Assembly: GCA_029779535.1 (NCBI GenBank)
Contig: JAKPAG010000086.1
Coordinates: 1-64,000, forward strand
Source of the DNA: Pseudomonadota bacterium
Lineage (GTDB): Bacteria > Pseudomonadota > Alphaproteobacteria > Sphingomonadales > Sphingomonadaceae
Direction: 5' to 3'
DNA: 64,000 nucleotides
Shown: positions 1 through 16,525 of the stretch, in pieces
Layout: the number at the start of each line of letters is the position of its first letter
Numbering within the stretch: the first letter of the stretch is position 1
Notes under the pieces: model-generated
Database searches by the model: none
Seen by the model: only the letters and a program-made list of their open reading frames with translations
Told to the model about the DNA's origin: nothing
Position numbers and translations under genes: made by a program

Positions 1-160
1 TTGGCCTGGCCGGCCCACTCCCCCGGCCCAACCACCCACTGGGTACCTTGAACGGGTGTTTGGGCCGGGGGAGTGGGCCGGCCAGGCCAGGAAAAGCCGG
101 ATGGCTTTTCCGCACCGCCGTGAGGCGGAAAATAACTCATTCCCGCACCGCAGCCGGAAA
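1..160. repeat. Modular palindromic repeat, locus 1
   Basis: A long palindrome has 36-nt arms at 2-37 and 54-89 with one mismatch. They surround the 16-nt asymmetric centre ACTGGGTACCTTGAAC (38-53). Next comes a hairpin with arms GGAAAAGCC and GGCTTTTCC around GGAT (90-111). It is followed by a hairpin with GCACCGCC, loop GTGA and GGCGGAAA (112-131). A degenerate GCACCG...CCGGAAA string follows near 146-160. The same three modules recur at five other loci in the first 16.5 kb. No U-tract is present, so a plain terminator is unlikely. The window edge may cut the left side. Confidence 0.85.
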
Positions 161-167
161 CAAATCC

Positions 168-635
168 CTACAACGCGACCACGCCGCCGGTGCTGCCGAA
201 CCCGCCCTCGCCGCGCGCGGTTTCGTCGAGTTCGCTCACTTCCACCCAGCCGGCCTGGACCACCGGGGCCAGCACCAGCTGGGCGATGCGGTCGCCGCGG
301 CGGATCTCGAACGGGTCAGCGCCATGGTTGATCAGGATCACCTTCAGCTCGCCGCGATAGTCGCTGTCGATCGTGCCGGGGGTGTTGGGCACGGTGATCC
401 CGTGCTTCAGCGCCAGGCCCGAGCGCGGGCGGACCTGCACTTCGAAGCCGTGCGGGATGGCCATGGCCAGGCCCGTGACCACCGCGTGGCGCGCGCCGGG
501 GGCCAAGGTTACGTCTTCGGCCGAAACCACGTCCATCCCGGCCGCGCCGCTGGTGGCATAGGCGGGCAGGTCCAGCCCCGCCCCATGCGGCAGGCGCTTA
601 ATCGGAACCGGGATTGGCGGCGGGGACGAGTGCAT
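168..635 (-). CDS. dut: Deoxyuridine 5'-triphosphate nucleotidohydrolase (dUTPase)
   Basis: Trimeric dUTPase of 155 aa, which hydrolyses dUTP to dUMP and PPi. This keeps uracil out of DNA and feeds dTMP synthesis. All five family motifs are visible in order: [36 protein letters not shown] and the C-terminal glycine-rich [10 protein letters not shown] that closes over the active site. I chose the ATG at 635 (MHSSPPPIP) because the family starts there; the reading frame stays open upstream inside coaBC. The start lies 38 bp inside the 3' end of coaBC, so the two are probably co-transcribed and translationally coupled. The length is normal for the family. Confidence 0.95.
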
Positions 636-2205
636 CGGCGATCCTTTCGACCAGGGCCAGGGCGACGTCGTCCTTTGGCATTTCCGGCAGACTTTCGACA
701 CCCTGCCCGGTGACGATATGCACGGCATTGGCATTGCCGCCCATCACGTCGCCCGACACGTCGTTGGCGACAATCCAGTCCGCCCCCTTGCGCCGGCGCT
801 TTTCCTTGGCGTGGTCGATCACCTTTTCGGTTTCGGCGGCGAAGCCCACCACCAGGCGCGGCCGCCGTTCGTGGACCGAAACCATGGCGAGGATGTCGGG
901 ATTCTCGGTCAGCCGCAGTGCCGGCGGGGCCGAGCCGCGCTTCTTCATCTTTTCCTGCGCCACGTCCATCGTGCGCCAATCGGCCACGGCGGCGACCATG
1001 ATCGCCACGTCCACCGGCAGGCTGCGCTTGACCGCCTCGGCCATTTCACGCGCGGTTTCGACGTCGATCCGCGTCACCCCGGGCGGGGTCGGCAGATGGA
1101 CCGGACCGCTGACCAGCAGCACTTCGGCCCCCAGCCGCGCGGCGGCGGCGGCAATGGCAAAGCCCTGCTTGCCCGAGCTGCGATTGGCGATGTAGCGCAC
1201 CGGATCGATCGGCTCGTGCGTCGGCCCGGCGGTGATCAGCACGCGCCTGCCCAGCAGCGGCCCATCGGCGGGCAGCGGTTCGGGATCGTCCCCGGCAAAG
1301 TCAGGCTGATCGTGCAGCGGATCATGGGCCAGTGCCTCGATCAGGGGTTCGGGCGGGGCCTGGTCCATCACCAGGTGGTTGATCGCCTCGGCATCGGTCG
1401 GCGGGGCGGCCTTGGCCTTGCCCTTCTTCGACAGCAGCGGACTGTCGAGGTTGAGGGGAATGTCCGGCTCGGCCGGGGGCAGATCCTCCTCGGCCAGGTC
1501 CGCCGGGGGCAGCAATTCGTCTTCGGCCAGCGGGTCGAAACGCGGTGTGGTCCGCTGGATCATGCTGGCGGACAGCCCGCCCAGATCCGCGCCCTGGGCC
1601 TCGATCTCGGCCAGCTCCTCGGCCAGCGGCGGCGGCGGCGGCGGCGCCAGCAGGGCGGGACTGTCCTGCCCCAGCGCGCGGCAGATCGCCTGCCACACCG
1701 CTTCGGGTTCGGGCAGGCGGCCGGGGCCGTATTCGCCGCAGGCCATCATCCCTTCATCGGGATCGAGCACCAGCACCCCGGCTTCGCGCAGGGTGGCGAC
1801 ATTGCGCTGGGTCGCGGCGTGCTGCCACATCCGCACGTTCATCGCCGGCACGGCCATGACCGGCTTGTCGGTGGCGAGCAGCAGCGTGGTCGCCAGATCG
1901 TCGGCGATCCCCGCCGCCATCCGGGCCATGAGGTCGGCCGTGGCCGGGCAGACTACCACCAGGTCGGCCTGGCGGCTGAGCTGGATGTGGCCCATCTCGA
2001 CCTCGGCCGTCAGATCCCACAGCGTGGTGTGGACCGGGCGTTCCGACAGCGCAGCCAGGGTCATCGCGGTGATGAACTTGGCGCCGCCTTCGGTCAGCAC
2101 GCAGGTCACCTCGCCCCCGCCCTTGCGGATCAGGCGCACCAGCTCGCACGACTTGTAGGCGGCAATGCCGCCGCCGACGATCAGCAGAATCCGTGGGCCG
2201 TTCAT
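598..2205 (-). CDS. coaBC: Bifunctional phosphopantothenoylcysteine decarboxylase / phosphopantothenate-cysteine ligase
   Basis: A 535-aa CoaBC (Dfp) enzyme catalysing two consecutive steps of coenzyme A synthesis. The N-terminal flavin-dependent CoaC domain shows GGGIAAYKS, the catalytic His in [16 protein letters not shown] and the substrate-clamp Cys in [11 protein letters not shown]. The C-terminal CoaB domain shows [16 protein letters not shown] and NRSSGKQG. The two are joined by an unusually long linker of about 140 residues, rich in Pro, Asp and Glu and including a run of six prolines; E. coli Dfp has almost no linker. The start at ATG 2205 fits the family alignment; a GTG at 2274 would add 23 residues, and neither has a strong Shine-Dalgarno. 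The 3' end overlaps dut. Confidence 0.94.
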
Positions 2206-2312
2206 ATGGGCCAGCTTGTGCAACGCCCCTTCCCTTCGTGCAACAGGCTTTGCTTTCGGTTTTCCCTGAGGCACAGTGCCTAAGACCGAGTTAACGGGGG
2301 GAGTTACCGATA

Positions 2313-2711
2313 ATGCGCTGGATCCTGACGGCCCTGATTTTCCTGTTCGGCCTGTTCGACCTGTTCATGGGCCTGAATTTCCTGTTCAATCCGCAGGCTA
2401 CCGCCACCGGGTTCGGCCTGGAAGCCACCGGTACGCAGGGGATGTCGACGCTGCGGGCCGATTTCGCCGCCTTCTTCGGCGTGGTCGCGATTTGCATGAT
2501 GCTGGGCGCCTGGCGCCGCAACGGCGACCTGCTGCTGGTCCCGGCCGCGCTGATGGGCACCGCGGTGACCGTGCGCGCGATCAGCCTGGCGCTGGATGGC
2601 ACCTATCCCGGCTGGCAGGTGCCGATGCTGGTCGAAGCGCTGCACGTGGCGCTGCTGGTCGCCGCCTGGCGGGTGCTGCCGCACCATAAGATCGAAGAAC
2701 TGACTTCCTGA
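2313..2711 (+). CDS. Small integral membrane protein, DUF4345-like
   Basis: A 132-aa hydrophobic protein with about four membrane segments: residues 1-25, near 48-65, 73-92 and 105-121. Its overall pattern resembles the DUF4345 family, a tentative match made by eye. No catalytic motif is visible. GGGGGAG at about 2295-2301 gives a good ribosome-binding site for ATG 2313. It is divergent from coaBC, with 107 bp between the starts. Function unknown. Confidence 0.8.
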   Translation: MRWILTALIFLFGLFDLFMGLNFLFNPQATATGFGLEATGTQGMSTLRADFAAFFGVVAICMMLGAWRRNGDLLLVPAALMGTAVTVRAISLALDGTYPGWQVPMLVEALHVALLVAAWRVLPHHKIEELTS

Positions 2712-2712
2712 T

Positions 2713-2782
2713 TTGAGACCGGCTCACGCAGGTGCGGAATGGCCATCCGGCCCTTCCTGGCAACACCGGCCCGCTCTCCCTA
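2713..2782. repeat. Modular palindromic repeat, locus 2 (truncated)
   Basis: Module order is a GCACCG-type hairpin remnant (CCGGCTCACGCAGGTGCGG, about 2719-2737). A hairpin follows with arms GGAATGGCC and GGCCCTTCC around ATCC (2736-2757, one mismatch). Last comes only the left half of the long palindrome (CAACACCGGCCCGCTC, 2761-2776). The right half and the conserved centre are missing, and the copy stops at the stop codon of the facing membrane-protein gene. It lies between two convergent genes. Confidence 0.7.
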
Positions 2783-3889
2783 CCCCTTCGCGCGGCTCCA
2801 CAATGAGCCGATCGCGCGTGGGGTGAAGGCCAGGCCGGCGAACATCGCCGGGGCCACCATCGCACCCCAGTAGAAGTTGTCGGGCCGCCCCGCGATCATG
2901 AAGGCAAGGCCGTAGCCAAGGTAGAGCAGCGTGGCGAAAGCGCCGATCTGGCGCTTCCATCCCGCCCAGCCCAGCACCGCCAGGATCACCAGCGGCCCGG
3001 CCACGTAATGCGGCAGGAAGCGCAGGTTGCTGGACAGGACCACGTTGGACAGCCAGCCCGACAGGCCGCGCAGCGCCAGCCATGACGGTCCGAGCGGATC
3101 AGTGGGCAGCACTTGCTGCGCGACCAGGTGGAGGTGCAGGGCCAGCCCGGCCAGGAACACGGCGACCAGCGCGCTCCACGCCGCGCCTTCCTTGCGGTCG
3201 CCCCGCCAGAAGGCCATCGCCGCCATCAGCATGACATAAGGCAGCGCATGTTCGCGGATTGCCACCGCCAGCGCGGCCGCCGCCAGCGCCCCGCCCCAGC
3301 GTTTGCCCGGGCGGTGCAAGCCGAATGACAGCGCCAGCAATTGCCCGGCCCACAATTCGTGCAGCACGAAGTAATAGCGGTTCAGCCCCAGCGCCGCACC
3401 GAAGAAGATCAGCGTGGTGCCCATGCGCCGCAGCCGCGGGCTGCACCCTTCATCGCCCAGGCGCTGCCACCAGGCCCAGAGGATCGCCGCCATCAGCCCG
3501 ATCGCCACCACCAGTTGCCCGGTTTCGCCCAGCAGCATGCACAGGTAGGCCAGCGTTGGCAGCCGCACGGCAAAGCCGGGACGCACCGGATAGTCGCTGC
3601 GGCGATGTTCCTGCGCAGCGACGACATAGTAATTCTCGCCCTTCGCGATGCGCAGGATCACCGTGTCGTACAGCGCCAGGTCATGGTCGCGGGGGCGTTC
3701 GGCCCCTTCGACCTTCGCCCCGGTGACATTGGCGACGAAGCCGGCGGTGCTGTAAGGCTGGTCGGCCGCCTTGATCGGCACCAACGCAGCGGCCAGCAGC
3801 AGCGCGGCCAGCGCCGCGAGCAAGAACCGCGCGGGCAGCCTGCCCCAGCTGGCGAACCTGTCGTCCGTGTCGCTCTGCCCGCCAGTCAT
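2780..3889 (-). CDS. Polytopic membrane protein of unknown function
   Basis: A 369-aa protein with an N-terminal membrane anchor (about residues 20-43), a hydrophilic stretch of about 75 residues, then seven or eight hydrophobic segments to the C-terminus. The layout, with a large first loop and multiple TMs holding Arg/His/Glu-rich connections, resembles GT-C type glycosyltransferases or mannosyltransferase-like proteins, but I see no diagnostic motif. ATG 3889 is preceded by AAGGGGG at a good distance; the TTG one codon upstream is less likely. The stop codon abuts repeat locus 2. Confidence 0.78.
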
Positions 3890-4024
3890 CAAGCCCCCTT
3901 GCGCAAGTCGTTGCCGGGCTTGTGCCTTCAGCCGGCCAGCCGCGCAAGCTGCGCATTGGGCGCGAGCCTGTTAGCTTGCGATTCAGCGGCGCTGTCCTAC
4001 ATAGGCGGGGAAAGGACCTGCCGA

Positions 4025-5965
<1,941 letters not shown>

Positions 5966-5974
5966 TCACTCTTT

Positions 5975-6008
5975 CGCGGAAACCGGGCCTCAGCCCCCGG
6001 TTTCCGCG
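5975..6008. terminator. Bidirectional hairpin between ftsH and the DUF3667 gene
   Basis: Perfect 13-bp arms at 5975-5987 (CGCGGAAACCGGG) and 5996-6008, with an 8-nt loop. The stop codon of the minus-strand DUF3667 gene sits in the loop and its last codons form the right arm. CTCTTT lies on the left side, but there is no long U-run, so it may rely on Rho or act mainly to block convergent transcription. Confidence 0.7.
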
Positions 6009-7051
6009 AGGACCAGCACGGTGAACAAGGTCAGCGCCGTCAGCGCGATCACCAGCAGCGCCGCCGTGCGCCAAAAGGCCCCGGCGCGGGTCAGCCCGTA
6101 GGTGCCGCGCAGCTGCTTGTACATGTGCAGCGGCGGCACAATGCCGACGAGCGCCGCAATGAACGGCGCACCCACCGCGTTACCAACCGCCACCACCACC
6201 GCCAGCAGCGACATGAAGCATAGCGAATAGGTGACGAAGACCGTGTGGTCGTAAAGCCGGTAGCGCCGGCTGAACGGGAACAGCAGCCACACGAAAGGCA
6301 CCGACAGCGGGATCAGCGCCCAGCTGTATTTATAGGCGTTGTTCTGCAGCTGGTAGAGCACCAGTGCCGGATTGGCCGCGAACCGTTTCAGCGCCTTGTC
6401 GATCGCCGGGATATCGCTGGACACGTTGCCATTGCCGGGGGCAGGCGAAGTGCCGGACTTCACCTCGCGCATGATGTCGAGCGCCTGCACCTGCGAGGCG
6501 ATCTCCTGGTCGAGCGCCGCCGTCGGTTGCCCCTTGGCTGCCAGCGCCGCGCGCTCGCGGTGCAGCTTGTCCAGCTGGGTTTGCGTCAGCTTGATGCCCT
6601 GCTCAAGGTTGGCCGTGCCCCCGTTGACGACCTTGGCGGGATCAAGGTCGATCCCGCCGGCCACCTGCTTGACCACCGCGAACATCAGGAACACGCAGAA
6701 CAGGAACAGCGCGATCGGGCTGACATAGGAGGCGCGCCGCCCGTCGATATATTCGCGGGTCAGCCGCCCCGGGCTGAACAGCAGGCGGGGCAGGGTGCGC
6801 CAGATCTTGCCTTCGAAGTGGAACACCCCGTGCAGCAGGTCGTGCCAGAACGCGCCCAAGGTCTTGTGGACGTGGGCCGCCTGGCCGCAACTATGGCAAT
6901 GGCTGCCGATCAGCACCGTGCCGCAGTTCAGGCAGGCGGATTCGTGGCTGTGCCCATCGCCGCCCTCGCCATGCGCGGGTTCGGCCGCGCGCGCGGCCAG
7001 CGCGCTTTGTGTAAGATCGCCAAGCACTTCGCCGCCGATGTCACCGGTCAC
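5990..7051 (-). CDS. DUF3667 domain membrane protein with N-terminal zinc ribbon
   Basis: A 353-aa protein. Residues about 41-55 carry paired cysteines (CLNCGTV...CHSCGQ) typical of the DUF3667 zinc ribbon. The family signature of an aromatic-rich amphipathic region (FWHDLLHGVFHFEGKIWRT) comes next, then a first TM near 112-132. A Gln/Lys/Glu-rich likely coiled coil follows at about 150-200, then four C-terminal TM segments. Function unknown; the family is common in sphingomonads and Bacteroidetes. The start is GTG 7051 with GGGGAGA just upstream. The C-terminus overlaps the ftsH terminator. Confidence 0.88.
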   Translation of the reverse strand: MTGDIGGEVLGDLTQSALAARAAEPAHGEGGDGHSHESACLNCGTVLIGSHCHSCGQAAHVHKTLGAFWHDLLHGVFHFEGKIWRTLPRLLFSPGRLTREYIDGRRASYVSPIALFLFCVFLMFAVVKQVAGGIDLDPAKVVNGGTANLEQGIKLTQTQLDKLHRERAALAAKGQPTAALDQEIASQVQALDIMREVKSGTSPAPGNGNVSSDIPAIDKALKRFAANPALVLYQLQNNAYKYSWALIPLSVPFVWLLFPFSRRYRLYDHTVFVTYSLCFMSLLAVVVAVGNAVGAPFIAALVGIVPPLHMYKQLRGTYGLTRAGAFWRTAALLVIALTALTLFTVLVLAETGG

Positions 7052-7140
7052 GATTGTCTCCCCAATGGCCTGTGGCGTTCATGGTCTTGCAAGCTTGCAC
7101 CGGTCAAGCCATCCTGCACCCAACCATCGGGAGAGAATGG

Positions 7141-7515
7141 ATGAAACGTGTCGCGCCTGCCCTGTGTCTTGCCCTGCTTGCCGCCAGCCCCGCCCTTGCC
7201 GCCGCCGGCGACACGAGCGTGGCCACCTTCCTGGCCAAGGCCGATGCGCTGAAAGCCAAGGGCCCGATGGCGCTGTTCTCGTCCGACATGAAAGTGTTGC
7301 AGCAGGAAGGCCAGGCCGCCGGGATGGCCTACAAGGCGCAGCTCGATGCCGAGCGCGCCCAGGGCCGCCCCAGCAGCTGCCCGCCAAAGGACGTCAAGAT
7401 CAGCAGCGACCAGGTGCTCAACCATTTGCGCACCTACCCCGCCGCGCAGCGCCCCGCCGTGACCATGCGCGCCGCCATCGGCGACATGTTCAAGCGCACC
7501 TGGCCGTGCCGGTAG
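7141..7515 (+). CDS. Secreted small protein, Rap1a/Tai-immunity-like
   Basis: A 124-aa protein with a clear Sec signal peptide (MKRVAPALCLALLAASPALAA). The C-terminal part (VLNHLRTYPAAQRPAV...AAIGDMFKRTWPC) matches the pattern of Rap1a/Tai-like proteins, which have a helix with L-R-x-x-P, an alanine-rich helix and a terminal Pro-Cys. That family includes type VI secretion immunity proteins but also many unassigned secreted proteins. No T6SS gene is in the window, so an immunity role is not implied. ATG 7141 has GGGAGAG upstream. Fold assignment is by eye and tentative. Confidence 0.72.
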   Translation: MKRVAPALCLALLAASPALAAAGDTSVATFLAKADALKAKGPMALFSSDMKVLQQEGQAAGMAYKAQLDAERAQGRPSSCPPKDVKISSDQVLNHLRTYPAAQRPAVTMRAAIGDMFKRTWPCR

Positions 7516-7535
7516 GCTGACCGGCCACGCCAACG

Positions 7536-7573
7536 AAAAGGCCCGCCTCCCCCAGGGGAAGCGGGCCTTTTTC
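7536..7573. terminator. Bidirectional rho-independent terminator
   Basis: The GGCCCGC arm (7540-7546) and the GCGGGCC arm (7561-7567) enclose a CTCCCC/GGGG inner stem. AAAA lies on the left and TTTTTC on the right. It serves both the upstream plus-strand gene and rpoZ from the other side. Confidence 0.88.
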
Positions 7574-7593
7574 AATGCGGCTGACGCCGGCGC

Positions 7594-7938
7594 TTAGCCG
7601 TCGTAGTCGCCGCCGATCGAGGTGTTGCGCACCGGCGCGGCAGCCGTGATCCGCAGCGCTTCGGCCGACTGGCTGAGCGAGCCGATGTCATCGACCTCGT
7701 CATCGTCTTCCGGCAGCACGCGCTGCAGGCTGGAAATGACCGATTCCTTGAGGTTTTCGGGCCGTACGGTCTGTTCGGCGATTTCGCGCAGGGCGACCAC
7801 CGGGTTCTTGTCGCGATCGCGGTCGATCGTCAGTTCGGCACCGCCCGAAATCTCGCGCGCACGCTGCGCGGCAAGCAGGACAAGGTCGAACCGGTTCGGG
7901 ATCTTGTCGACGCAATCTTCAACGGTAACGCGCGCCAT
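7594..7938 (-). CDS. rpoZ: DNA-directed RNA polymerase subunit omega
   Basis: A 114-aa omega subunit that helps assemble beta-prime and binds ppGpp in proteobacteria. The hallmark N-terminus [30 protein letters not shown] is present, although written here only as the family signature region (residues 1-30). The C-terminal extension is acidic. ATG 7938 is chosen over an upstream in-frame start because the family begins at [14 protein letters not shown] lies upstream. A TTGACT promoter is seen at 7979-8007. It shares a bidirectional terminator with the convergent gene. Confidence 0.96.
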
Positions 7939-7978
7939 GGGGCACTCCAGTATCAGCAAAATTTCGCAGGAAAGCGGC

Positions 7979-8007
7979 TGCTACACGCGCAGCGATTCGC
8001 AAGTCAA
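7979..8007 (-). promoter_or_regulatory. Probable sigma-70 promoter of rpoZ
   Basis: On the minus strand, TTGACT (8002-8007) is followed by a 17-bp spacer and GTAGCA (7979-7984). The -35 is consensus-like and the -10 is weak. It lies about 40 bp upstream of the rpoZ start codon. Confidence 0.5.
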
Positions 8008-8035
8008 GAAAAATTCGTTTAAACCATTGTTTTCG

Positions 8036-9547
8036 TTAGTCAAATTGAGCGTATCCGCGCGAATCGGGAGCGAGGTTGCCGAACTTGGTGAATTCGCTCT
8101 GGAACAGCAGCTGGACATTGCCGGTGGAACCGTGGCGCTGCTTGGCAATGATCACTGTGGCCTTGTTCACCACTTCAAGGTGGCGCTGCATCCAGGTGTC
8201 ATACTTGGCGATGGCATCACCGGTGCTGGTCTCGGTCGGCTCGTCGGGCTTGAGCGCGTTGTGGTAGTATTCCTCGCGGAAGATGAACCACACCATGTCC
8301 GCGTCCTGTTCGATCGAGCCGGATTCGCGCAGGTCCGACAGCTGCGGGCGCTTGTCCTCGCGGCTTTCGACCGCACGGCTGAGCTGCGACAGCGCGATCA
8401 CCGGCACCGACAGTTCCTTGGCCAGGGTCTTCAGGCCGCGGCTGATTTCCGAGATTTCGTTGACGCGGTTGTCATTGGCGCGGCCCGATCCCTGCAACAG
8501 CTGCAGGTAGTCGATCACGATCAGCCCGATGTCGTGCCGCCGCTTCAGCCGCCGCGCGCGGGTGCGCAGCGCGGCGATGGTGAGGCCGGGGGTATCGTCG
8601 ATATAGAGCGGCAGTTCGGCCAGGCGCTGGCTGGCAAACGAGATGCGCTGGAAATCCTCGCGGCTGATCGAACCGCGCCGCAGCCGTTCGCTGCTGATTT
8701 CCGCCTGTTCGGCCAGGATACGCGTGGCCAGCTGATCGGCGCTCATTTCCAGGCTGAAAAAGGCGACCGGCGCGCCGACCGACTTGGCCGGGTCCATCTT
8801 GTGAACCTGGATATCCTCCAGAAAGCGTTCGGCGCAGTTGAAGGCGATGTTGGTAGCCAGCGAGGTTTTGCCCATGGCCGGACGCCCGGCCAGGATGATC
8901 AGGTCCGAATCGTGCAAACCGCCGATCTTGGCGTTGAGATCGTCAAGCCCGGTGGTCCGGCCCGAAATGTGCCCGCCCGAATTGAGCGCCTTTTCGATCT
9001 GGGTAATCGCCACCAGGCTGGATTGCCGGAACGACACCGCCTCGCTGCCGACCGAGGCGCCTTCGGCCACCTTGTATAGCGCGGCCTCGGCTTCGGAGAT
9101 CTGCTCCATCGGCTCGACCCGCTCGCTGGTGTCGAGTGCGGATGTGACCAGGTTGCGCCCCACGCTGACCAGTTCACGCAGCAAGGCCAGGTCATAGATC
9201 TGCTCGGCCAGCTCGCGCGGGGCGAGCAGGCCCTGCCCGTCCGCTGTCAGCCGCGCGAGATAAGCCGCACCGCCCAGTTCCTTCAGCGCATCATCCGCTT
9301 CGAAATAGGGCTTGAGCGTCACCGGGGTAACCACCGCCTTGCGGTCCAGCAGTTGCAGTATCCGGGCGTAGATGCGGTTGTGGACGGGTTCGAAGAAATG
9401 CTCGGGCCGCAGCTGGGTGTGCAGTTCCTCGATCACGCGGTTGTCGATCAGCACCGCGCCCAGGAATGCGGCTTCGGCTTCCACGTTGGCGGGCAGCGCG
9501 CGGGCGGCGGTTTCGTCGGGTCGGGTAATCAGATCGGTCTCGGCCAT
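8036..9547 (-). CDS. dnaB: Replicative DNA helicase
   Basis: A 503-aa hexameric 5'-3' helicase that unwinds the fork and recruits primase. The N-terminal DnaB domain (about residues 20-130) begins PANVEAEAAFLGAVLIDN. The RecA-like C-domain shows Walker A GRPAMGKTS, FSLEMSADQLATR, Walker B IGLIVIDYLQLL, and ALSQLSRAVE with the following arginine-rich motif. ATG 9547 fits the family. It is divergent from the UPF0262 gene, with a small perfect palindrome between them. Length is normal; no intein is present. Confidence 0.97.
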   Translation of the reverse strand: MAETDLITRPDETAARALPANVEAEAAFLGAVLIDNRVIEELHTQLRPEHFFEPVHNRIYARILQLLDRKAVVTPVTLKPYFEADDALKELGGAAYLARLTADGQGLLAPRELAEQIYDLALLRELVSVGRNLVTSALDTSERVEPMEQISEAEAALYKVAEGASVGSEAVSFRQSSLVAITQIEKALNSGGHISGRTTGLDDLNAKIGGLHDSDLIILAGRPAMGKTSLATNIAFNCAERFLEDIQVHKMDPAKSVGAPVAFFSLEMSADQLATRILAEQAEISSERLRRGSISREDFQRISFASQRLAELPLYIDDTPGLTIAALRTRARRLKRRHDIGLIVIDYLQLLQGSGRANDNRVNEISEISRGLKTLAKELSVPVIALSQLSRAVESREDKRPQLSDLRESGSIEQDADMVWFIFREEYYHNALKPDEPTETSTGDAIAKYDTWMQRHLEVVNKATVIIAKQRHGSTGNVQLLFQSEFTKFGNLAPDSRGYAQFD

Positions 9548-9607
9548 AAGCGTGTTTCAATGCGCGGGGACGGCGGCCCCCGCAAGCGGCAAGCGGCGTG
9601 AAATTAC

Positions 9608-9622
9608 TCCACAGCCTGTGGA
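9608..9622. promoter_or_regulatory. Perfect 15-nt palindrome in the dnaB/UPF0262 divergent gap
   Basis: TCCACAG, C, CTGTGGA forms exact 7-bp arms with a 1-nt centre. It lies 61 bp upstream of the dnaB start and 53 bp before the UPF0262 start. The position suits an operator acting on one or both genes. It resembles but does not match a DnaA box. Confidence 0.4.
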
Positions 9623-9674
9623 AGTTCGAGAGGGCACTTGCCCGCGCATTTTGCATCTGCGAAAAGCGCCCCCC

Positions 9675-10157
9675 ATGGCGGACGCGAGGATCATCCACAT
9701 CGAGCTCGATGAAGCGACGATCCTGTGGCGCAATGCGGATATCGAACAGGAACGCCGCATCGCCATCTTCGACCTGATCGAGGAAAACCGCTTCAAGCCG
9801 CTGCGCGCCTGGGAGGCCGGGCACCAGGGCCCCTACCGCCTGCGCCTGGCGGTGGATGACGGGCGGCTGGTGCTGACCGTGGCGGACGAGAGCGAGCAGC
9901 TGCTGGAAACGCTGATCCTGGGCCTGGGCCGGTTCCGCCGCCCGATCCGCGAATACTTCGCGATCTGCGACAGCTATTACCAGGCGATCCGCAAGGCCAC
10001 CGCCAACGAGATCGAGACGATCGACATGGCCCGGCGCGGCGTGCACAACGATGCCGCCGAACTTCTGCTGGAACGTCTTGAAGGAAAAGTGGAAACCGAC
10101 TTCGCCACGGCGCGGCGGCTCTTTACCCTGATCTGCGTGCTGCATATCAGGGGGTAG
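9675..10157 (+). CDS. UPF0262 family protein
   Basis: A 160-aa cytosolic protein of the alphaproteobacterial UPF0262 family, function unknown. The family pattern is plain: an N-terminal IIHIELDE, ERRIAIFDLIEENRF, then ADESEQLLETLILGLGRFRR, DYY-like SYYQAIRKA and a helical end. ATG 9675 follows the first alignable residue. It is divergent from dnaB and followed by repeat locus 3. No membrane segment or catalytic motif is visible. Confidence 0.9.
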   Translation: MADARIIHIELDEATILWRNADIEQERRIAIFDLIEENRFKPLRAWEAGHQGPYRLRLAVDDGRLVLTVADESEQLLETLILGLGRFRRPIREYFAICDSYYQAIRKATANEIETIDMARRGVHNDAAELLLERLEGKVETDFATARRLFTLICVLHIRG

Positions 10158-10169
10158 GAGGAGGATTTC

Positions 10170-10267
10170 TTTCCGCCTCATGGCGGTGCGGGAAGGCCAT
10201 CCGGCCCTCCCTGACCTGGCCGACCCACTCCTCCGGCCAGGTCAAGCCAACTGCGGATGCAGTTGGC
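10170..10267. repeat. Modular palindromic repeat, locus 3 (short form)
   Basis: Four hairpins run in series. TTTCCGCC, TCAT, GGCGGTGC is at 10170-10189. GGAAGGCC and GGCCCTCC around ATCC is at 10191-10210, with one mismatch. A short version of the central palindrome has exact arms GACCTGGCCG and CGGCCAGGTC (10213-10243). GCCAACTGC and GCAGTTGGC around GGAT is exact at 10246-10267. The 16-nt centre found in loci 1, 4 and 5 is absent here. The element fills the gap after the UPF0262 stop. Confidence 0.8.
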
Positions 10268-10306
10268 GCATCCAACAACTAAATCAGGTCGCAAGGGTAT
10301 CCAGTG

Positions 10307-11005
10307 ATGGCACGCAAGAACAACCGCCGCCTGCGCACGCGCCTGTTTGGCGCCGCGCTGCTGCTCGCGCTGGCCGGCGGCGGCTGGGCCTGGTGGAACA
10401 TGCAGCACTGGCTGCCGCCGCGCGCCGCCTTTCCGATGCAGGGGCTGGAGGTGAGCGCCGAAGACGGCGAGATCGACTGGACGGCAGCGCGAGCAACCGG
10501 GGCGGAATTCGCCTATCTCGATGCCTCGGCCAGCGCCTTTGCCCGCGATCCGGCCTTCGTGAAGAACCTTGAGGATGCGCGCGCCGCCAAGCTGCAGGTT
10601 GGCGCGGTGCACCGCTATGACCCGTGCCAGCCGGCCGACAAGCAGGCCGCCAACTTCGTCACCGTGGTCCCGCGCGACAAGGCGATGCTGCCCCCGGCGG
10701 TCGAACTCGACATGCTGGCCGACACCTGCCCGATCAAGGTGTCCGACGCCGCGGTGCTGAGCGAGCTGACCACCTTTCTCAACCAGATCGAGACGCACAC
10801 TGGCAAGCCGGCGATGCTCAAGCTGTCGCGCGGCTTCGAGGCGCGCTATCATGTCGCCCAGGGGATCGACCGGAACCTGTGGTTGCTGCGCGACCGGTTC
10901 CAGCCGGACTATGCCGGGCGGCCGTGGACCTTGTGGACGGCCAACAGTGCGCTAAGCAGCGCGGCAGGGGCCGCGCCGATACGATGGGTGGTGGTGCAAC
11001 CATGA
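10307..11005 (+). CDS. Membrane-anchored GH25-like (lysozyme-fold) protein
   Basis: A 232-aa protein with an N-terminal TM anchor (about residues 10-31) and a periplasmic domain like GH25 muramidases. LEVSAEDGEIDW matches the DVSxxxGxIDW opening, FAYLDASAS matches the F-x-Y-I-K-A-T-E strand, and LPPAVELDM matches PPxxDxE. The three acidic positions expected to be catalytic read Glu, Glu and Asp instead of Asp, Asp and Glu, and the ATEG glutamate is missing. Activity is therefore uncertain. ATG 10307 (or GTG 10304) follows AAGGG. It ends in an ATGA overlap with cdd. Confidence 0.8.
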   Translation: MARKNNRRLRTRLFGAALLLALAGGGWAWWNMQHWLPPRAAFPMQGLEVSAEDGEIDWTAARATGAEFAYLDASASAFARDPAFVKNLEDARAAKLQVGAVHRYDPCQPADKQAANFVTVVPRDKAMLPPAVELDMLADTCPIKVSDAAVLSELTTFLNQIETHTGKPAMLKLSRGFEARYHVAQGIDRNLWLLRDRFQPDYAGRPWTLWTANSALSSAAGAAPIRWVVVQP

Positions 11006-11424
11006 CGATTGACCGGGACAGCCTGATTGCCAAGGCGCGCGCCGCGCAGGGGCAGGCCTATGCCCCCTATTCGAACTTCCACGTCGGCGCGGCGCTGCTG
11101 TTCGCCGATGGCAGCGTGGTGACCGGGGCCAATGTCGAAAACGCCAGCTACGGCCTCGCGCTCTGCGCCGAAACCAGCGCGGTCGCGGGCGCGATGAACC
11201 GCGGACTGCGCGGCGGACTGCTGGCTGTGGCAGTGATCGGCGGCCTGCAGGGCGAGGACGGCCCGGTCGTCACCCCCTGCGGCCGCTGCCGCCAGGTGCT
11301 CAATGAATTGGCCCAGCTCGGCGGCACCGACCCGGTGATCTGGTGCGTCGGCGCTGACGAGGTGCTGGAACTGCAGCTATCGGCCCTGCTGCCGCACGCG
11401 TTCGGACCGGCGAATTTGGGGTAA
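11002..11424 (+). CDS. cdd: Cytidine deaminase
   Basis: A 140-aa zinc enzyme converting cytidine and deoxycytidine to uridine forms in pyrimidine salvage. The substrate loop PYSNFHVGAAL, the first zinc motif with catalytic glutamate (CAETSAV) and the second PCGRCRQVL are all visible. The length matches the tetrameric short form. ATG 11002 overlaps the stop of the GH25-like gene (ATGA), indicating translational coupling. It is followed by repeat locus 4. Confidence 0.95.
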   Translation: MTIDRDSLIAKARAAQGQAYAPYSNFHVGAALLFADGSVVTGANVENASYGLALCAETSAVAGAMNRGLRGGLLAVAVIGGLQGEDGPVVTPCGRCRQVLNELAQLGGTDPVIWCVGADEVLELQLSALLPHAFGPANLG

Positions 11425-11444
11425 GCTGCGGGCCGGATTGAGTC

Positions 11445-11567
11445 CTTGTTTGGTGCGCTGATCGCATCCGCGATCAGCTTGCAGCACCGGCCCGCTCCCC
11501 CGGCCCGACCACCCACAGGGTACCTTGAACGGGTGGTCGGGCCGGGGGAGCGGGCCGGTGCTGCAAG
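11445..11567. repeat. Modular palindromic repeat, locus 4 (most perfect copy)
   Basis: The leader CCTTGTTTGG precedes a hairpin with arms GCTGATCGC and GCGATCAGC around ATCC (11457-11478). Exact 37-nt palindrome arms at 11478-11514 and 11531-11567 enclose the 16-nt centre ACAGGGTACCTTGAAC (11515-11530). The copy lies between convergent cdd and M14 carboxypeptidase genes. The perfect arms suggest a recent arrival or active maintenance. Confidence 0.9.
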
Positions 11568-11581
11568 GACAGCAAATCAAC

Positions 11582-12709
11582 TTACCCCTGCAACCACTCC
11601 AGCAGCGCGCCCATGCAGTCGCGGCCAAGGATCATCGAGCGTTCCGCGCTCCACCCTTGCGCGGCGCAGGGCAGATCGTCGTTGTCCTTGAACGGCATTT
11701 CCAGCGTCATCGCGGTCGCGCCGAAGCGCTCGGCCAGTTGGTTGGTCGACATGGTGAGGTTCGCCCGCCCCGGCGCCGCGACGGGGTAGCCCAGCCGGGT
11801 CTGGAAATCGGGCGTGCGCCGTTCAAGAATCGCGGCATAGCGGTCGAACCCCGCCTGCAAGCCTTCGGACCATGACGGGATGCCCTGGTAGCCGGCCAGG
11901 AACACCGCCGGGATCGCCTCGTCACCGTGGACGTCCATCGCGAAATGCACGCCGGTCTGGTCCATCGCGCTCAGGATCGCCAGCACTTCGGGGCTCTTCT
12001 GCGCGCTGGGGCTGGCCCATTCGCGGTTGAGGTTCACCCCCGCCGCATTGGTGCGCAGGTGGCCGCGCACCGATCCGTCCGGGTTGGCATTGGGCACCGC
12101 GTGGAACCGGCACAGCTGGCGCAGCTTGCGCCCCACGGGGTCGGCCGGGTCGGTCAGGCAATCGAGCGCGCCTTCCATCCACCATTCGGCCATGCTTTCG
12201 CCGGGGTGCTGGCGGGCATAGAGCCAGACATGCCGTTCGCCCTCGCCCAGGTCGAGGCAGTCGATCGTCCGCCCATCCAGCGTCAGTCCCAGCACGCGGT
12301 GTTCAACCCCTTCGGCCAGCGCGGTGGTGGCGATCAGGTCCTGGTGGCGTTCCCAGCTGTAGGGCGCGAAATAGGCGAACCACGCCTGCCCGCCCATCGG
12401 CGTGTAACGGATCGTCAGCGTCCCGCCCATTTCGGCCTTGTCATAGCTGCTGTCGGCGCGGCCCCAGAATTCGCGGTCCTCGCTCACCGCCGCGCGGTAG
12501 CCGGGCCAGCCGCCGGGATAGGCCGATGCCTCCAGCCCGGTGATCTTCAGCTTCAGCGCGCGCCCCGCCGCGCCGGTGACGCGGAAGTGGAACCACTGGA
12601 AGAAATCGCTCTGCTGGTCCTTGCGGATGGCGAGGGTGGCGGTGGTGCCCTCTATGCCCAGGACTTCGATGTTCCCGGAATCGAACGCGCAATCGATCTG
12701 GATGGTCAT
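11582..12709 (-). CDS. M14 family zinc carboxypeptidase, cytosolic carboxypeptidase-like
   Basis: A 375-aa protein. The N-terminal beta-sandwich (residues 1-125) is typical of the cytosolic carboxypeptidase subfamily. The M14 domain follows with zinc ligands His168 and Glu171 in RQHPGES and His261 in DVHGDE. Substrate-binding NLNRE (226-230) and catalytic Glu337 in MTLEMPF complete the site. There is no signal peptide, so it is probably cytosolic. The exact substrate in bacteria is not established. The start codon overlaps the stop of the upstream DUF4136 gene (ATGA on the minus strand). Confidence 0.9.
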
Positions 12710-13293
12710 TTCACCACGATAGTCTCGCCCGACAGTCCGGGGAAGTCCTTGAACAGTGCCGCGGCCAGTTTCGGCGCGGCCAGCGCGGTATCGGCCATCG
12801 GGCTGGTGGCGCGCACGGTGAACACAGCGCGCCCTTCCCACAAGGCGGCCTTGCTGGCGCGGTCGCGGATCGTCACGGCCATGGTGGTCTGCACCTGCTG
12901 CGCGCTGCGCGGGGTGAGGTTGATGCCGATCCCCACGCCCACGCCCGAACCCCAGCTGCCGGTCGATCCGCCAACCCCGACGCTGACCGGGCCGCTGCCC
13001 GCTCTGGGCTCGATCGTCATGCGCGACAGGCGCAGTTCGGCCACTTGGGCGCTGGTCCCCTGCGGCGCTGCATAGCCCAGCAGCGCCAGCTGCTGCTGCA
13101 CCGCCGCCTGGTAGGTGCGCCATTCAATCGAGGCGCCGTCCATCCCCGCCGCCGGTTCGACCGCGATGGTGCCCTTGCCCAGCATGGCCACATCCGCGGC
13201 GTGAAAGCGCGTCACCTCAACCGGGCCGACCGGGGCAACGCAGCCACCGGCGGCCAGGGCCAGCGCAAGCGCGGCATTTTTCAGGCACTTCAT
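12706..13293 (-). CDS. DUF4136-like lipoprotein
   Basis: A 195-aa protein with a lipoprotein signal peptide; the lipobox is LAAGGC at residues about 14-19. The mature part resembles DUF4136: beta-rich with [17 protein letters not shown], a glycine/serine stretch, then [12 protein letters not shown] and a C-terminal helix. ATG 13293 follows AAAGGT and gives the signal peptide. It is probably anchored to the outer membrane. It is paralogous to the next gene upstream (13360-14037) and overlaps the M14 gene. Function unknown. Confidence 0.82.
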
Positions 13294-13359
13294 CGCGGGC
13301 GACCTTTCATGGCAGTGCTCCGCCACTTGTGAATCCGATGCCGCAGCGATGCAAGCGGA

Positions 13360-14037
13360 TCAGCGCGGCGCGGGGAAGCGTTCGAACAGCGCACCGGCCA
13401 GCCGCGCGGCGATCTGACCGTCGCCCCAGCGCGGATCGCCCGCGCGGGTCAGCATGTCGGCGCGCCCTTCCCACAGCACCTTGCCGCTGGCGGTGTCCCT
13501 GATCCGCGCTTCCAGCCGGGTCGAGATCAGCGCCTTGCGCGGCTTGGTCAGGTCGACATTCAGCGCCATGCCCATCATCGAACCGTGGTTCGATATGCCC
13601 ATGGTCATTTCGCCGCTGACCGGTTTGCGCGGCGCTTCCTCGGGCACGGCCTCGCGGCGCAGCACGCGCACTTCAGCCAGCTGCCCGCCGGCGGGATCCC
13701 GCGTTGCGGTATCGTAGCCGGCGCGGGCCAGGGCATCGATCACCGCCGCTTCATAAGTGGCCAGCTCGCGCGCCTCGGTCAGCCCGCCGCCGGCCGGGGC
13801 TTCGACCACCGCGATGGCGCCCTTGCCCAGCGGCGCGCCGTCCGCGCCTTCGGCGGCGAAGGTGGCGACCTCGACCTTGCCTTCGCGCCCGGCGCCCGTG
13901 CTGGCACTGAGCCGGTCCCAGCCAGGCCGGTCCCAACCCGCGCCGCCCCAGCCTGGCTGGGCCAGCGCGGCAGTGGCCGTCATGCCCAGGGTCAGGGCGG
14001 CGGCAAGGGGGAGCAAGCGGGGCGAAGTATTGTGCAT
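13360..14037 (-). CDS. Secreted DUF4136-like protein
   Basis: A 225-aa protein with a standard signal peptide ending ALA-QPG and no lipobox cysteine, unlike its downstream paralog. After a Gly/Trp/Asp-rich spacer the same features recur: ELATYEAAVIDALARAGYD, a central AEVRVLRR strand, and SGKVLWEGRADM before a final helix ending LFERFP. ATG 14037 is preceded by TAAGG. The tandem pair with the M14 carboxypeptidase probably forms one operon. Function unknown. Confidence 0.8.
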   Translation of the reverse strand: MHNTSPRLLPLAAALTLGMTATAALAQPGWGGAGWDRPGWDRLSASTGAGREGKVEVATFAAEGADGAPLGKGAIAVVEAPAGGGLTEARELATYEAAVIDALARAGYDTATRDPAGGQLAEVRVLRREAVPEEAPRKPVSGEMTMGISNHGSMMGMALNVDLTKPRKALISTRLEARIRDTASGKVLWEGRADMLTRAGDPRWGDGQIAARLAGALFERFPAPR

Positions 14038-14170
14038 GAAACGGGCCTTATGTTGGAGACCGGCTGACTGCCTCCGCGCCGCAGTCTGCCCGCCGGCATT
14101 GCCCGGCCATGAACAAGGGCCTGCACGCGCACGAATTTGTGCGGAATTTCCACTTCCCCGCGCCACCGCG

Positions 14171-14191
14171 ATGCCGCATTAGATGCGGCAT
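14171..14191. promoter_or_regulatory. Inverted repeat overlapping the galE start codon
   Basis: ATGCCGCAT (14171-14179) and ATGCGGCAT (14183-14191) are exact 9-bp arms around TAG. The second arm contains the first two bases of the galE ATG (14190). No Shine-Dalgarno is visible upstream. The hairpin could hide the start codon or mark an operator. Confidence 0.45.
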
Positions 14192-15191
14192 GACTGACAA
14201 GCTTCCCGTACTCGTCACCGGCGGTGCCGGTTATATCGGCAGCCATGCCGTGCTCGCGCTCAAGGATGCGGGCTGGCCGGTGGCGGTGATCGACAACCTA
14301 GTCACCGGCTTTCGCTGGGCCGTGCCTGATGACGTGCCCTTCTATGAAGGGGACATCGAGGACGCGGACCTGCTTGCCCGGATCTTCGCCGAACAGGGCA
14401 CCCGCGCGGTGATGCATTTCGCGGGCTCGGTGGTGGTGCCCGAATCCGTGGTTGATCCGCTGAAATACTATCACAACAACACCGCCAAGACCCGCAGCCT
14501 GATCGCGTCGGTGGTGGCGGCGGGCGTGCCGCATTTCATCTTCAGCTCCACCGCCGCGACTTATGGTATTCCCGATGTCCCCGCGGTGACAGAGGACACA
14601 CCGCAAGTGCCGATCAATCCCTACGGCATGTCCAAGCTGATGACCGAATACATGCTGCGCGATTCGGCGGCGGCGCACCCGATCAACTTCTGCGCGCTGC
14701 GCTATTTCAACGTCGCCGGGGCCGATCCGCAGGGCCGCACCGGGCAATCGACCGCCGGGGCGACCCACCTGATCAAGGTCGCGGTCGAAGCCGCGCTGGG
14801 CAAGCGTGACAGCGTGGGCGTATTCGGCACCGATTTCGCCACGCCCGACGGCACCGGGGTGCGCGATTACATCCACGTCAGCGACCTGGCCGCCGCCCAC
14901 GTTCTGGCGCTGGAGGCGCTGATCGCCGATCCAGCGCGCTCGCTGACGATGAACTGCGGCTATGGCCGGGGCTATTCGGTGCTCGAAGTGCTGGACGCGG
15001 TCGACCGCGTGACCAACACGGCGATCAAGCGCGTGATGAGCCCGCGCCGCGCCGGCGACCCCGATTCGCTGATTTCCGACAACGCCCGAATCAAGGCCAC
15101 CCTGCCGTGGGTGCCGCAATATGCCGATCTCGACACGATCGTGACCCACGCGCTGCAATGGGAACGCAAGCTGAGCGAGCGGGTGGGGTAG
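14190..15191 (+). CDS. galE: UDP-glucose 4-epimerase
   Basis: A 333-aa extended SDR enzyme that interconverts UDP-glucose and UDP-galactose for cell-surface sugars. The NAD-binding GGAGYIGSH is at the N-terminus. The catalytic Ser/Thr is in SSTAATYG, the Tyr/Lys pair in NPYGMSKLM, and the family signature GVRDYIHVSDLAAAH is present. ATG 14190 is where the family alignment begins; the reading frame is open further upstream but not conserved. The start sits in an inverted repeat and lacks a Shine-Dalgarno. It is followed by repeat locus 5. Confidence 0.95.
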   Translation: MTDKLPVLVTGGAGYIGSHAVLALKDAGWPVAVIDNLVTGFRWAVPDDVPFYEGDIEDADLLARIFAEQGTRAVMHFAGSVVVPESVVDPLKYYHNNTAKTRSLIASVVAAGVPHFIFSSTAATYGIPDVPAVTEDTPQVPINPYGMSKLMTEYMLRDSAAAHPINFCALRYFNVAGADPQGRTGQSTAGATHLIKVAVEAALGKRDSVGVFGTDFATPDGTGVRDYIHVSDLAAAHVLALEALIADPARSLTMNCGYGRGYSVLEVLDAVDRVTNTAIKRVMSPRRAGDPDSLISDNARIKATLPWVPQYADLDTIVTHALQWERKLSERVG

Positions 15192-15204
15192 GTTTCTCTC
15201 TGGT

Positions 15205-15403
15205 TGCCGCCGGTGCGGACAAGGCATCCGCCTTGTCCGCGCAACACCGGCCCGCTCCCCCGGCCCAACCACCCACAGGGTACCTTGAACGGGTGGTTGG
15301 GCCGGGGGAGCGGGCCGGTGATGCAAAGCCCTTCGCGGATGCGATCAGCGCACCAAACAAGGAAACTTCCGCATAGCTTTCCCGCACCGGCTTCAGCCGG
15401 AAA
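15205..15403. repeat. Modular palindromic repeat, locus 5
   Basis: The 299-bp gap between galE and rpmJ is mostly repeat. A hairpin with exact arms GCGGACAAGGC and GCCTTGTCCGC around ATCC is at 15215-15240. Palindrome arms of 34 nt (15241-15274 and 15291-15324, one mismatch) enclose ACAGGGTACCTTGAAC. A decayed GGAT hairpin follows at 15328-15349, running into the inverted leader CCAAACAAGG. A GCACCGGC, TTCA, GCCGGAAA hairpin is at 15384-15403. The leader is inverted relative to locus 4 while the centre is not. Confidence 0.88.
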
Positions 15404-15416
15404 CAGGACTCAGTTA

Positions 15417-15445
15417 TTGACTTGGCCGCGAGTCACCCCTAACGG
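15417..15445 (+). promoter_or_regulatory. Promoter of rpmJ
   Basis: TTGACT (15417-15422), a 17-bp spacer and TAACGG (15440-15445), continuing CCCG. The same elements and spacing precede rpmH and, with one change each, rpsT. The leader holds a small hairpin, GCGGC-ATTCA-GCCGC (15463-15477). Confidence 0.75.
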
Positions 15446-15490
15446 CCCGATCTCAATTTTCAGCGGCATTCAGCCGCACCCGAGGACATC

Positions 15491-15616
15491 ATGAAGATTC
15501 GCAACAGCCTCAAGTCGCTCAAGGACCGCCACCGGGACAACCGCGTGATCCGTCGTCGTGGCCGGACCTATGTGATCAACAAGACCAACCGTCGCTTCAA
15601 GGCGCGCCAGGGCTAA
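15491..15616 (+). CDS. rpmJ: 50S ribosomal protein L36
   Basis: A 41-aa basic protein starting [17 protein letters not shown] and ending RRFKARQG. It is the longer, zinc-ligand-free type of L36 common in alphaproteobacteria: the usual cysteines are absent. It is too short for routine ORF detection. ATG 15491 is preceded by CGAGGAC. It has its own promoter at 15417-15445 and its own terminator, so it is a single-gene transcript. Confidence 0.95.
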
Positions 15617-15656
15617 GGCTGCTGGGGGCCGCCGCAGGGCGGACCGGTTGAACCAA

Positions 15657-15700
15657 AACGGCCCGCCTCCGGTTCCGGGGTGCGGGCCGAAGCCATTTTT
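15657..15700 (+). terminator. Rho-independent terminator after rpmJ
   Basis: CGGCCCGC and GCGGGCCG arms enclose an inner CTCCGGTTCCGGGG segment, then AAGCCATTTTT. It lies between rpmJ and the HAD hydrolase gene. Confidence 0.82.
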
Positions 15701-15718
15701 GCGGCGGGAAACGGGCGC

Positions 15719-16321
15719 ATGATCGAAGCGGTGGTATTCGATGTCGGCAACGTGCTGGTGCGCTGGGACCGGCGCCTGCCCTTCGTGAATCACTTCACCG
15801 ATGCGGCCGAATTCGATCACTTCATGGACGAGGTGATCCCGCTGTCGTGGCATGCCGAACATGACGCCGGACGCCCGGCGGCGGACCTCGTCGCCGAACG
15901 CAGCGCACTGTTCCCGCACTATGCCCAGTTGATCCATGACTGGTTCGCCCGGTTCAACGAATCGATTCCCGGCCCCGTCCCCGGCAGCCCCGAGTTGGTC
16001 GAGGAACTGCACGCGCGCGGTGTGCCGCTTTACGCGATCACCAATTTCGGCGCCGATACCTGGGCTGGCTTTCGCCCCACCTTCCCGCTGGCCGAACGCT
16101 TCCGCGACATAGTAGTGTCGGGCGTGGAGCAACTGGCCAAGCCAGACCCGGCAATCTACGCGCTGGCAGAGGCGCGCTTCGGCCACGCGCCCGAAGCGAT
16201 GCTGTTCATCGACGATAGCCTGCCCAACGTGGAAAGCGCGCGCGCCTGCGGCTGGCACGCGCATCACTTCAGCGATGCGATGGGGCTCAAAGCGGAGCTG
16301 CGCGAGCGCGGGCTGATCTGA
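15719..16321 (+). CDS. HAD-superfamily hydrolase, subfamily IA
   Basis: A 200-aa phosphatase or dehalogenase-like hydrolase. Motif I is VVFDVGNVLVRW with the nucleophile Asp at its start. The Thr/Asn motif II is ITNFG, the motif III Lys is in AKPDPAIY, and the acidic motif IV is FIDDSLPNVESA. The alpha-helical cap lies at about residues 17-85. The substrate cannot be told from sequence. ATG 15719 fits the fold's first strand. It is followed by repeat locus 6. Confidence 0.9.
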   Translation: MIEAVVFDVGNVLVRWDRRLPFVNHFTDAAEFDHFMDEVIPLSWHAEHDAGRPAADLVAERSALFPHYAQLIHDWFARFNESIPGPVPGSPELVEELHARGVPLYAITNFGADTWAGFRPTFPLAERFRDIVVSGVEQLAKPDPAIYALAEARFGHAPEAMLFIDDSLPNVESARACGWHAHHFSDAMGLKAELRERGLI

Positions 16322-16442
16322 ATCCCTTGTTTGGGGCGCTGATCGCCTCGGCGATCAGCTTGGCCTGGCCGGCCCGCTCCCCCGGCAGAGTCTCTTTCCG
16401 GCTGACGCCGGTGTTGCAAAGCCCATCGCGGATGCGAAGGGC
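16322..16442. repeat. Modular palindromic repeat, locus 6 (partial)
   Basis: The leader CCTTGTTTGG precedes GCTGATCGC and GCGATCAGC around CTCG (16338-16359), a loop change from ATCC. Only the left half of the long palindrome remains (about 16360-16385). A TTTCCGGC, TGAC, GCCGGTGT hairpin follows at about 16396-16414. GCCCATCGC and GCGAAGGGC around GGAT (16421-16442, one mismatch) ends the copy. The conserved centre is missing. It occupies the HAD/CC_3452 convergent gap. Confidence 0.8.
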
Positions 16443-16449
16443 GCACCCG

Positions 16450-16482
16450 GCAAAAAAGAGCCCCCGTCCTTGCGGGCGGGGG
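16450..16482 (-). terminator. Rho-independent terminator of the CC_3452 gene
   Basis: On the minus strand, GCCCCCG (75-81 side) pairs with CGGGGGC (58-64 side) and is followed by CTCTTTTTT. Positions are 16458-16464 and 16475-16481, with the U-tract at 16450-16455. Confidence 0.82.
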
Positions 16483-16525
16483 CCTTCTTGAGGGTGGGGG
16501 CTGTAAGGAGTGCCTGGGTATTGCG

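Follow-up and report, generated by a model that had tools for sequence, protein, structure and literature searches.

What keeps the two arms of a hairpin complementary when their letters change? The question is raised by the first 64,000 nucleotides (nt) of contig JAKPAG010000086.1 (assembly GCA_029779535.1, Sphingomonadaceae), hereafter the window, in which a first-pass annotation described intergenic hairpins with a fixed ATCC loop and unrelated yet complementary stems. Stem covariation commonly counts as proof that an RNA is functional; in the present hairpins, both arms change together, with little variation in loop, length, or spacing. We found that the hairpins are the ends of a dispersed three-hairpin repeat, for which, as the annotation had suspected, no name was found in the literature searched (most subscription papers lay outside it). 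In our judgment the chances are about even that this is a non-autonomous mobile repeat whose ends are read by hairpin shape, the TCC loop, and a GGTGC foot, and whose stem arms change together, probably by template switching. The family occurs in a genus, probably Novosphingobium, that is used for biotechnology, and it points to an enzyme that may read hairpin shape; its many copies in many species form a natural data set in which selection on structure and template-switch copying can be separated by direct test.

The hairpins are the ends of a three-hairpin repeat

Read with their flanks in one orientation, the hairpins of the window proved to belong to a larger palindromic repeat as its terminal arms, and the view of them as separate elements was not borne out. 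From outside to inside, the full form consists of a terminus, a stem of 9 base pairs (bp) with a 4-nt loop, a linker, a GC-rich arm ending in CCACCC, and a spacer, followed by the mirror image; in this way, two NTCC-loop end hairpins enclose a long hairpin in the center, whose arms are ~33 bp long (CCCGCTCCCCC...CCACCC). The terminus either has a consensus near GAGTCCTTGTTTGGTGC or is a small foot hairpin, such as CCGGC/GCCGG, ending in GGTGC (the foot). The linker is of the TTGCAACACCRG or the TTGGCCTGGCCGG type, and the spacer of ~16 nt is often built around GGTACC. End-hairpin stems are nearly always 9 bp long and are mainly of two types, GC.....GC and GG.....CC, with one stem of each type in 34 of 40 complete copies (shuffled mean, 19.6). 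In 28 of 122 cases (~0.2 expected), a GANTC site begins at exactly 17 nt outward from the hairpin; none occurs in the 40 central stretches of the complete copies.

Some copies depart from this plan. Three mini copies in the genome of the window (C4, C63, and C61; loci L285, L286, and L288) have lost the long central hairpin, and their end hairpins are joined by a short GGCCTGGCCAGGCC-like palindrome. At L132, from the alphaproteobacterial metagenome-assembled genome Dive96, the central palindrome is lengthened outward by matching bases (TTTGGGAAGTCCTGAAGC and its complement) and stands in place of separate end hairpins.

Stem arms change together within a fixed geometry

In a pairing-blind test, copies were defined by context (foot, 22 free bases, linker, and central arm) with no pairing required. 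The 146 candidates had no mismatch in 104 cases, 1 in 25, 2 in 4, 3 in 1, and ≥5 in 12. The 88 distinct 22-mers with ≤3 mismatches formed a mean of 8.59 of 9 pairs, compared to 4.52 with arms re-paired; all four Watson-Crick types were found at stem pairs 3 to 6, and the first and last pairs were nearly invariant (81 and 86 of 88). The loop was indeed nearly fixed, as NTCC rather than strictly ATCC: among 134 context-defined hairpins, 124 carried NTCC, 1 carried the inverted GGAN, and 9 carried other loops. A model-based alignment of 98 hairpins from other genomes (75 distinct), taken from 97 chosen loci, a few of which overlap, and fitted to the structure, had 98.5% of cells paired (57.6% shuffled) and a covariation of 0.905 (0.170 shuffled); because related genomes are not independent, the covariation and pairing figures are not P values. 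Sliding this alignment by 1 to 3 columns reduced pairing to ≤50% at every slide.

The fetched loci contained 198 distinct perfect hairpins with a 9-bp stem and 4-nt loop, 22 of them in N runs; 124 of the other 176 had an NTCC loop, a share that shows loop preference and not genome frequency, since the loci were chosen around the repeat. These 124 carried 48 different stems. The stems covary as the first-pass annotation had stated, but they are not unrelated: 37 of the 48 lie one base-pair change from another (12.3 in column shuffles), so stem change is mostly stepwise.

Orthologous sites show such changes. At one site, the relative G034 has GGGAAGGCC where our genome has GGAAAAGCC, both arms being changed at two pairs and the other hairpin being identical; GCCCTTCGC at L080 and GCCCCTGGC at L082 also differ by two pairs changed on both arms. 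Between L079 (GCAATCCGC/GCGAATTGC) and L149 (ACAATCCGC/GCGAATTGT), pair 1 changed on both sides and a C-A mismatch at pair 6 was kept. Elsewhere the stem is the same (L151 and L164), differs in one arm only (L147 and L158), or is wholly different together with its foot (L023/L262 and L018/L235), in which case the copies may have been inserted separately.

The central arms co-change as well: position +16 is A or G in a 73:74 ratio and is mismatched in 5 of 147 cores. Set against the two end types, the central spacer points either way: of the 40 complete copies, 19 could be scored, 12 with one orientation and 7 with the other. Central-arm co-change and a spacer in both orientations are as expected from template switching, for which arm homogenization and spacer inversion (PMC8604942) and multibase compensatory change (PMC8794818) are described in excerpts of these two papers. 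We read the co-changing stems, with their kept loop and length, as copying between arms plus retention. In a comparison of decay between complete and solitary hairpins, mismatches were present in 12 of 66 complete copies and in 20 of 67 core-only and solitary ones (P = 0.16; this excludes 16 coreless copies that have a partner).

In one pair of orthologous copies behind the same gene (L238 position 1631 and L194 position 1280), the central spacer is oppositely oriented; this reversal is the footprint of an inversion between the palindrome arms.

The repeat is abundant in its genome and patchy beyond it

Counting window hairpins of ≥8 bp with ≤1 mismatch over all 256 four-base loops gave 78, or 0.3 per loop, and ATCC and GGAT together gave 8; the eighth of these (at 56775), absent from the first-pass annotation, sits within open frames of 394 and 408 amino acids. 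R1, a covariance model built for the end hairpin, was trained solely on this genome's copies, and its training sequences are among its matches; its counts are lower bounds, 150 first-look candidates per genome having been scored. R1 had at least 74 matches in the assembly at E ≤ 10 and at least 64 at E ≤ 0.01 under stricter filters, well beyond a rate expected from base composition. At least one R1 match was found in 20 of 41 genomes of the genus (our own included), the next richest being G034 (at least 17) and G009 and G024 (at least 13 each).

The central palindrome reaches further. It was present in 28 of 61 genomes searched and, with the best two candidates per genome scored, in 18 of 385 genomes of a class sample, from 12 families (our own included in both counts). 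In a scan of a genome collection, the best 80 of at least 111 stretches carry titles, and the flank tallies by title rest on these 80. Among the matches listed, NTCC hairpins flanked 35 of 56 testable core halves in Novosphingobium, 8 of 22 in other sphingomonads, none of 9 in Sphingomonas palustris (where 7 had other hairpins), and 2 of 32 under the remaining titles, some of which may be sphingomonads. In other Alphaproteobacteria the central palindrome is scattered patchily, for the most part lacking NTCC end hairpins. Carriage by phages was dropped, a phage collection giving no match; among plasmids, two records matched, the best place in each covering about two-thirds of the query.

Nine contigs of our assembly (C16, C27, C28, C33, C46, C63, C67, C70, and C75) end inside or near copies, so copies may be undercounted.

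Copies are gained and lost between relatives

The copy cut by the contig end (A) was outside the comparison with relatives, and the five other window sites (B to F) were compared. At each of them, at least one relative has no copy. Where both flanks aligned, the site of copy B was empty in 3 of 3 relatives, that of copy C was empty in 6 of 6, and that of copy D had no NTCC hairpin in 5 of 5, 4 of which hold other DNA there. Of the three relatives comparable at the site of copy E, two have no copy and the third carries a different fragment; in G034 this site is rearranged. At the site of copy F, G034 has a copy with a different stem (GCCAACTGC), G024 has a fragment, and G004 has none. Comparison of our own C89:15074 with its G034 orthologue suggests a nested insertion, one copy having entered an older one. 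The absence of copies at the window sites in relatives shows gain and loss of the repeat, probably through movement.

Weighing movement, RNA function, and self-correction

If the repeat is a non-autonomous mobile element, an enzyme acting in trans would move it and would read a folded single strand or cruciform, not the letters of the stem. A change in one arm would be copied into the other during replication, as in the homogenization of inverted-repeat arms, and copies losing the geometry would stop spreading. As a tentative extension, hairpin geometry and the TCC loop alone could serve as the address of a whole class of mobile DNA, to which the repeat would belong: self-correcting palindromes with stems free to drift, moved by a structure-reading enzyme and layered in sphingomonads on an older central palindrome found across Alphaproteobacteria.

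Several observations weigh against this account. No transposase was linked to the repeat. Target-site duplication was not detectable in 37 complete copies, in which no offset beat shuffled pairings and the exact ends are not fixed; nor did comparison with close empty sites fix the ends. Some orthologous sites hold copies in several species, which fits retention for a host function or repeated insertion in the same place as well. The loop is inverted in only 1 of 134 hairpins, and template switching across a whole hairpin would invert the loop too. In the closest pair of loci, L107 and L244 (94% identity), both left stems carry a single uncorrected mismatch and the right stems are the same; one-arm changes that persist at this identity indicate that correction is not immediate.

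To examine placement, a simple filter on codon composition was used to call the genes around 40 complete copies, taken from our own genome and from others. The complete copies are faced by 50 gene 3′ ends, at a median distance of 21 nt; 36 of these ends are no more than 31 nt away from the hairpin, and 28 of the 40 copies have a gene 3′ end within that distance. Among 32 copies with both neighbors called, 15 lie between convergent genes, 14 between genes in the same direction, and 3 between divergent genes; for the 63 adjacent gene pairs of the window, the corresponding numbers are 13, 37, and 13. Three of the 40 copies were called inside a frame by the filter. Placement at gene ends fits a 3′-end role or tolerated landing places; a mobile repeat could end up there because insertions are tolerated, because such targets are chosen, or because hairpins at mRNA 3′ ends are mildly beneficial.

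This placement, with its excess of convergent neighbors, is what selection on RNA would lead one to expect, the hairpins acting in both directions at 3′ ends to terminate transcription or shield the mRNAs of genes ending on either side. Copies at orthologous sites over ~73 to 94% identity of the aligned flanks agree with such a role. We nevertheless consider it somewhat unlikely, although it is the most serious of the alternatives. The consensus has only two T's after the stem and not a terminator T-run, and the window sites lack copies in relatives. G-U is the usual RNA intermediate in compensatory pair change; read from outside to center, G-U occupied 3 of 783 cells, compared to 11 A-C and 19 other mismatches. 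Its rarity carries little weight as evidence, since a G-U read on one strand becomes A-C when the other is read.

Template switching could also act alone, homogenizing any short palindrome, with outer hairpins that are neither recognized nor functional. The mechanism is documented (excerpts of PMC8794818 and PMC8604942), and it would account for co-change in both central arms and outer stems and for the spacer in both orientations. It sits poorly with stems that are nearly always 9 bp long, with near-invariant end pairs, and with a loop almost never inverted: fixed length and loop argue against neutral correction alone, which would let both drift, and we judge it improbable. Of the two processes that the first-pass annotation offered, selection on structure and a copying that rewrites stems, both remain live and probably act together.

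Candidate mobilizers and known repeat families

The mobile-repeat reading calls for an enzyme in trans, and the RAYT (Y1 HUH) transposases that move REPIN/REP families were considered. The repeat is palindromic and intergenic with paired inverted hairpins, and RAYT-like genes (Y1 genes sorted by frame length and score) were enriched, among the matches listed, in class genomes holding the central palindrome (9 of 18, compared to 33 of 367 without it; Fisher P = 2e-5). Nevertheless, this origin is largely refuted and very improbable. Y1_Tnp (PF01797) had no match in our assembly (G000, 99.98% complete) nor in the copy-rich relatives G005, G009, G013, and G024; 16 of 35 other genomes checked have it. 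An NTCC hairpin was found in the flanks of none of 11 RAYT-like loci (420-nt flanks; 54 and 378 nt at contig ends), and RAYT was dropped as the mobilizer.

In 8 of these 11 loci, a different inverted word of 13 to 28 nt, e.g., AGATTACGGTGACAGTGCAC, was common to both flanks, and in the five RAYT-like proteins tested, REP_Tyr_transpos matched just below the cutoff. RAYT-like genes at L295 (in G034), L296, L301, L305, and L308 have the inverted repeat ATTACGGTGACAGTGCAC or near variants in both flanks, which is probably these genes' own REP family. In the loci examined, the enrichment was not matched by adjacency to the palindrome. A full central palindrome lay within 1.2 kb at 2 of 20 Y1 loci (L295 and L301, the latter's ~0.4 kb away), and three further loci (L307, L312, and L314) had single arm matches only; we take these as proximity in copy-rich genomes.

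According to the excerpted text of PMC3116915, REPINs resemble the repeat in being small, palindromic, extragenic, multicopy, and non-autonomous inverted pairs, and their REP ends are conserved while the middle varies, with compensatory changes reported in the middle-part hairpin. Here, in contrast, the end stems vary, the loop, foot, and central hairpin are conserved, and no RAYT was found in the assembly. Miniature inverted-repeat transposable elements such as NEMIS, ERIC, and RUP are also short, dispersed inverted repeats with copy-less sites in relatives; for the present repeat, however, no target duplication was detected, the terminal stems have no fixed sequence, and no partner insertion sequence is known, positions of model matches having been viewed by eye and no dedicated search for an autonomous element with the same ends having been made.

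RIME and AB,C elements are mosaic intergenic palindromes present in dozens of copies. They are mentioned for rhizobia in PMC2573895 and PMC2245857, and as far as the excerpts of these papers go, stem-variable, loop-fixed ends are not among their described features; it is by description only that they are set apart. Like the repeat, the CIR elements of Caulobacter and Brucella are alphaproteobacterial intergenic inverted repeats with CcrM (GANTC) sites, and the excerpted description (PMC2229807), by which alone they are set apart, gives them two arms and a linker with GANTC at a terminal loop. That the repeat is a sphingomonad form of CIR or RIME is highly doubtful, for despite the shared intergenic palindromes and the GANTC 17 nt from the hairpin, it has three hairpins, NTCC end loops, and GANTC at its outer ends.

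A known RNA family was dropped, since the window had no Rfam match at the gathering score; 21 of 32 subthreshold hits in positions 1 to 17000 were to microRNA models. CsrA, reading a GGA loop on the other strand, was dropped because PF02599 had no match in G000. Searched in full text, 12-base pieces of the central arms matched only papers on eukaryote or human-virus subjects, as judged by title and start of the abstract.

Copies in the window

Of the six copies in the window, only E is complete; A is cut off where the contig begins, and B, C, D, and F are truncated, shortened, or joined. The seven hairpins of the first-pass annotation were all found where it had placed them, with 0 or 1 mismatch in 9 pairs; its list was incomplete and missed those at 15328-15349 and 16338-16359. 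Copies B and C were delimited by sequence, A and D by sequence and BLAST, E also by its predicted fold, and F by sequence and orthologous-site comparison.

The contig begins within copy A, the left hairpin of which lies outside this assembly piece. Its central part (1-89) has the left linker end, the central palindrome (10-81; BLAST hit C46:10-81), and the right linker; the right end hairpin (90-111, minus strand) reads GGAAAAGCC-ATCC-GGCTTTTCC from outside to center and is followed by a foot hairpin, CCGCC/GGCGG, at ~115-128. Copy B (2718-2779, plus strand) is a left half only, with foot, hairpin (2736-2757; GGAATGGCC/GGCCCTTCC, 1 mismatch), linker, and the start of the central arm, and ends at the stop codon of a convergent open frame. 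Copy C (10165-10290) has a shortened center: a foot hairpin and a hairpin at 10190-10211 (1 mismatch) are followed by a short palindrome (TGACCTGGCCG...CGGCCAGGTCA) and an inverted hairpin at 10246-10267 with stem GCCAACTGC. Copy D (11440-11567, plus strand) has the terminus GAGTCCTTGTTTGGTGC (11440-11456), a hairpin (11457-11478) with stem GCTGATCGC, a full central palindrome (11485-11560), and a truncated right hairpin.

Copy E (15192-15372) runs from a left foot through the left hairpin (15217-15238; GGACAAGGC, lengthened by an outer GC pair), the central palindrome (15245-15320), and the right hairpin (15328-15349; GCCCTTCGC/GCGATCAGC) to the right foot, GCACCAAACAAGG. The right hairpin has 3 mismatches and arms of two different stem types. 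Folded as DNA, copy E has a z-score of -11.2; the left and central hairpins are predicted to form, and the right one is not paired as a unit. Beside it stands a remnant foot hairpin of another copy, extending to 15411 and ending in GACTC.

Copy F (16320-16447) consists of two joined fragments. The first has the terminus GAATCCCTTGTTTGGGGC, a perfect hairpin with loop CTCG (16338-16359), and the start of the center; the second has a foot hairpin and then an inverted hairpin (16421-16442, 1 mismatch). Copy F is adjoined by a GC-rich, terminator-like hairpin at 16450-16490, which has counterparts at the orthologous sites of three relatives, where the repeat next to it differs.

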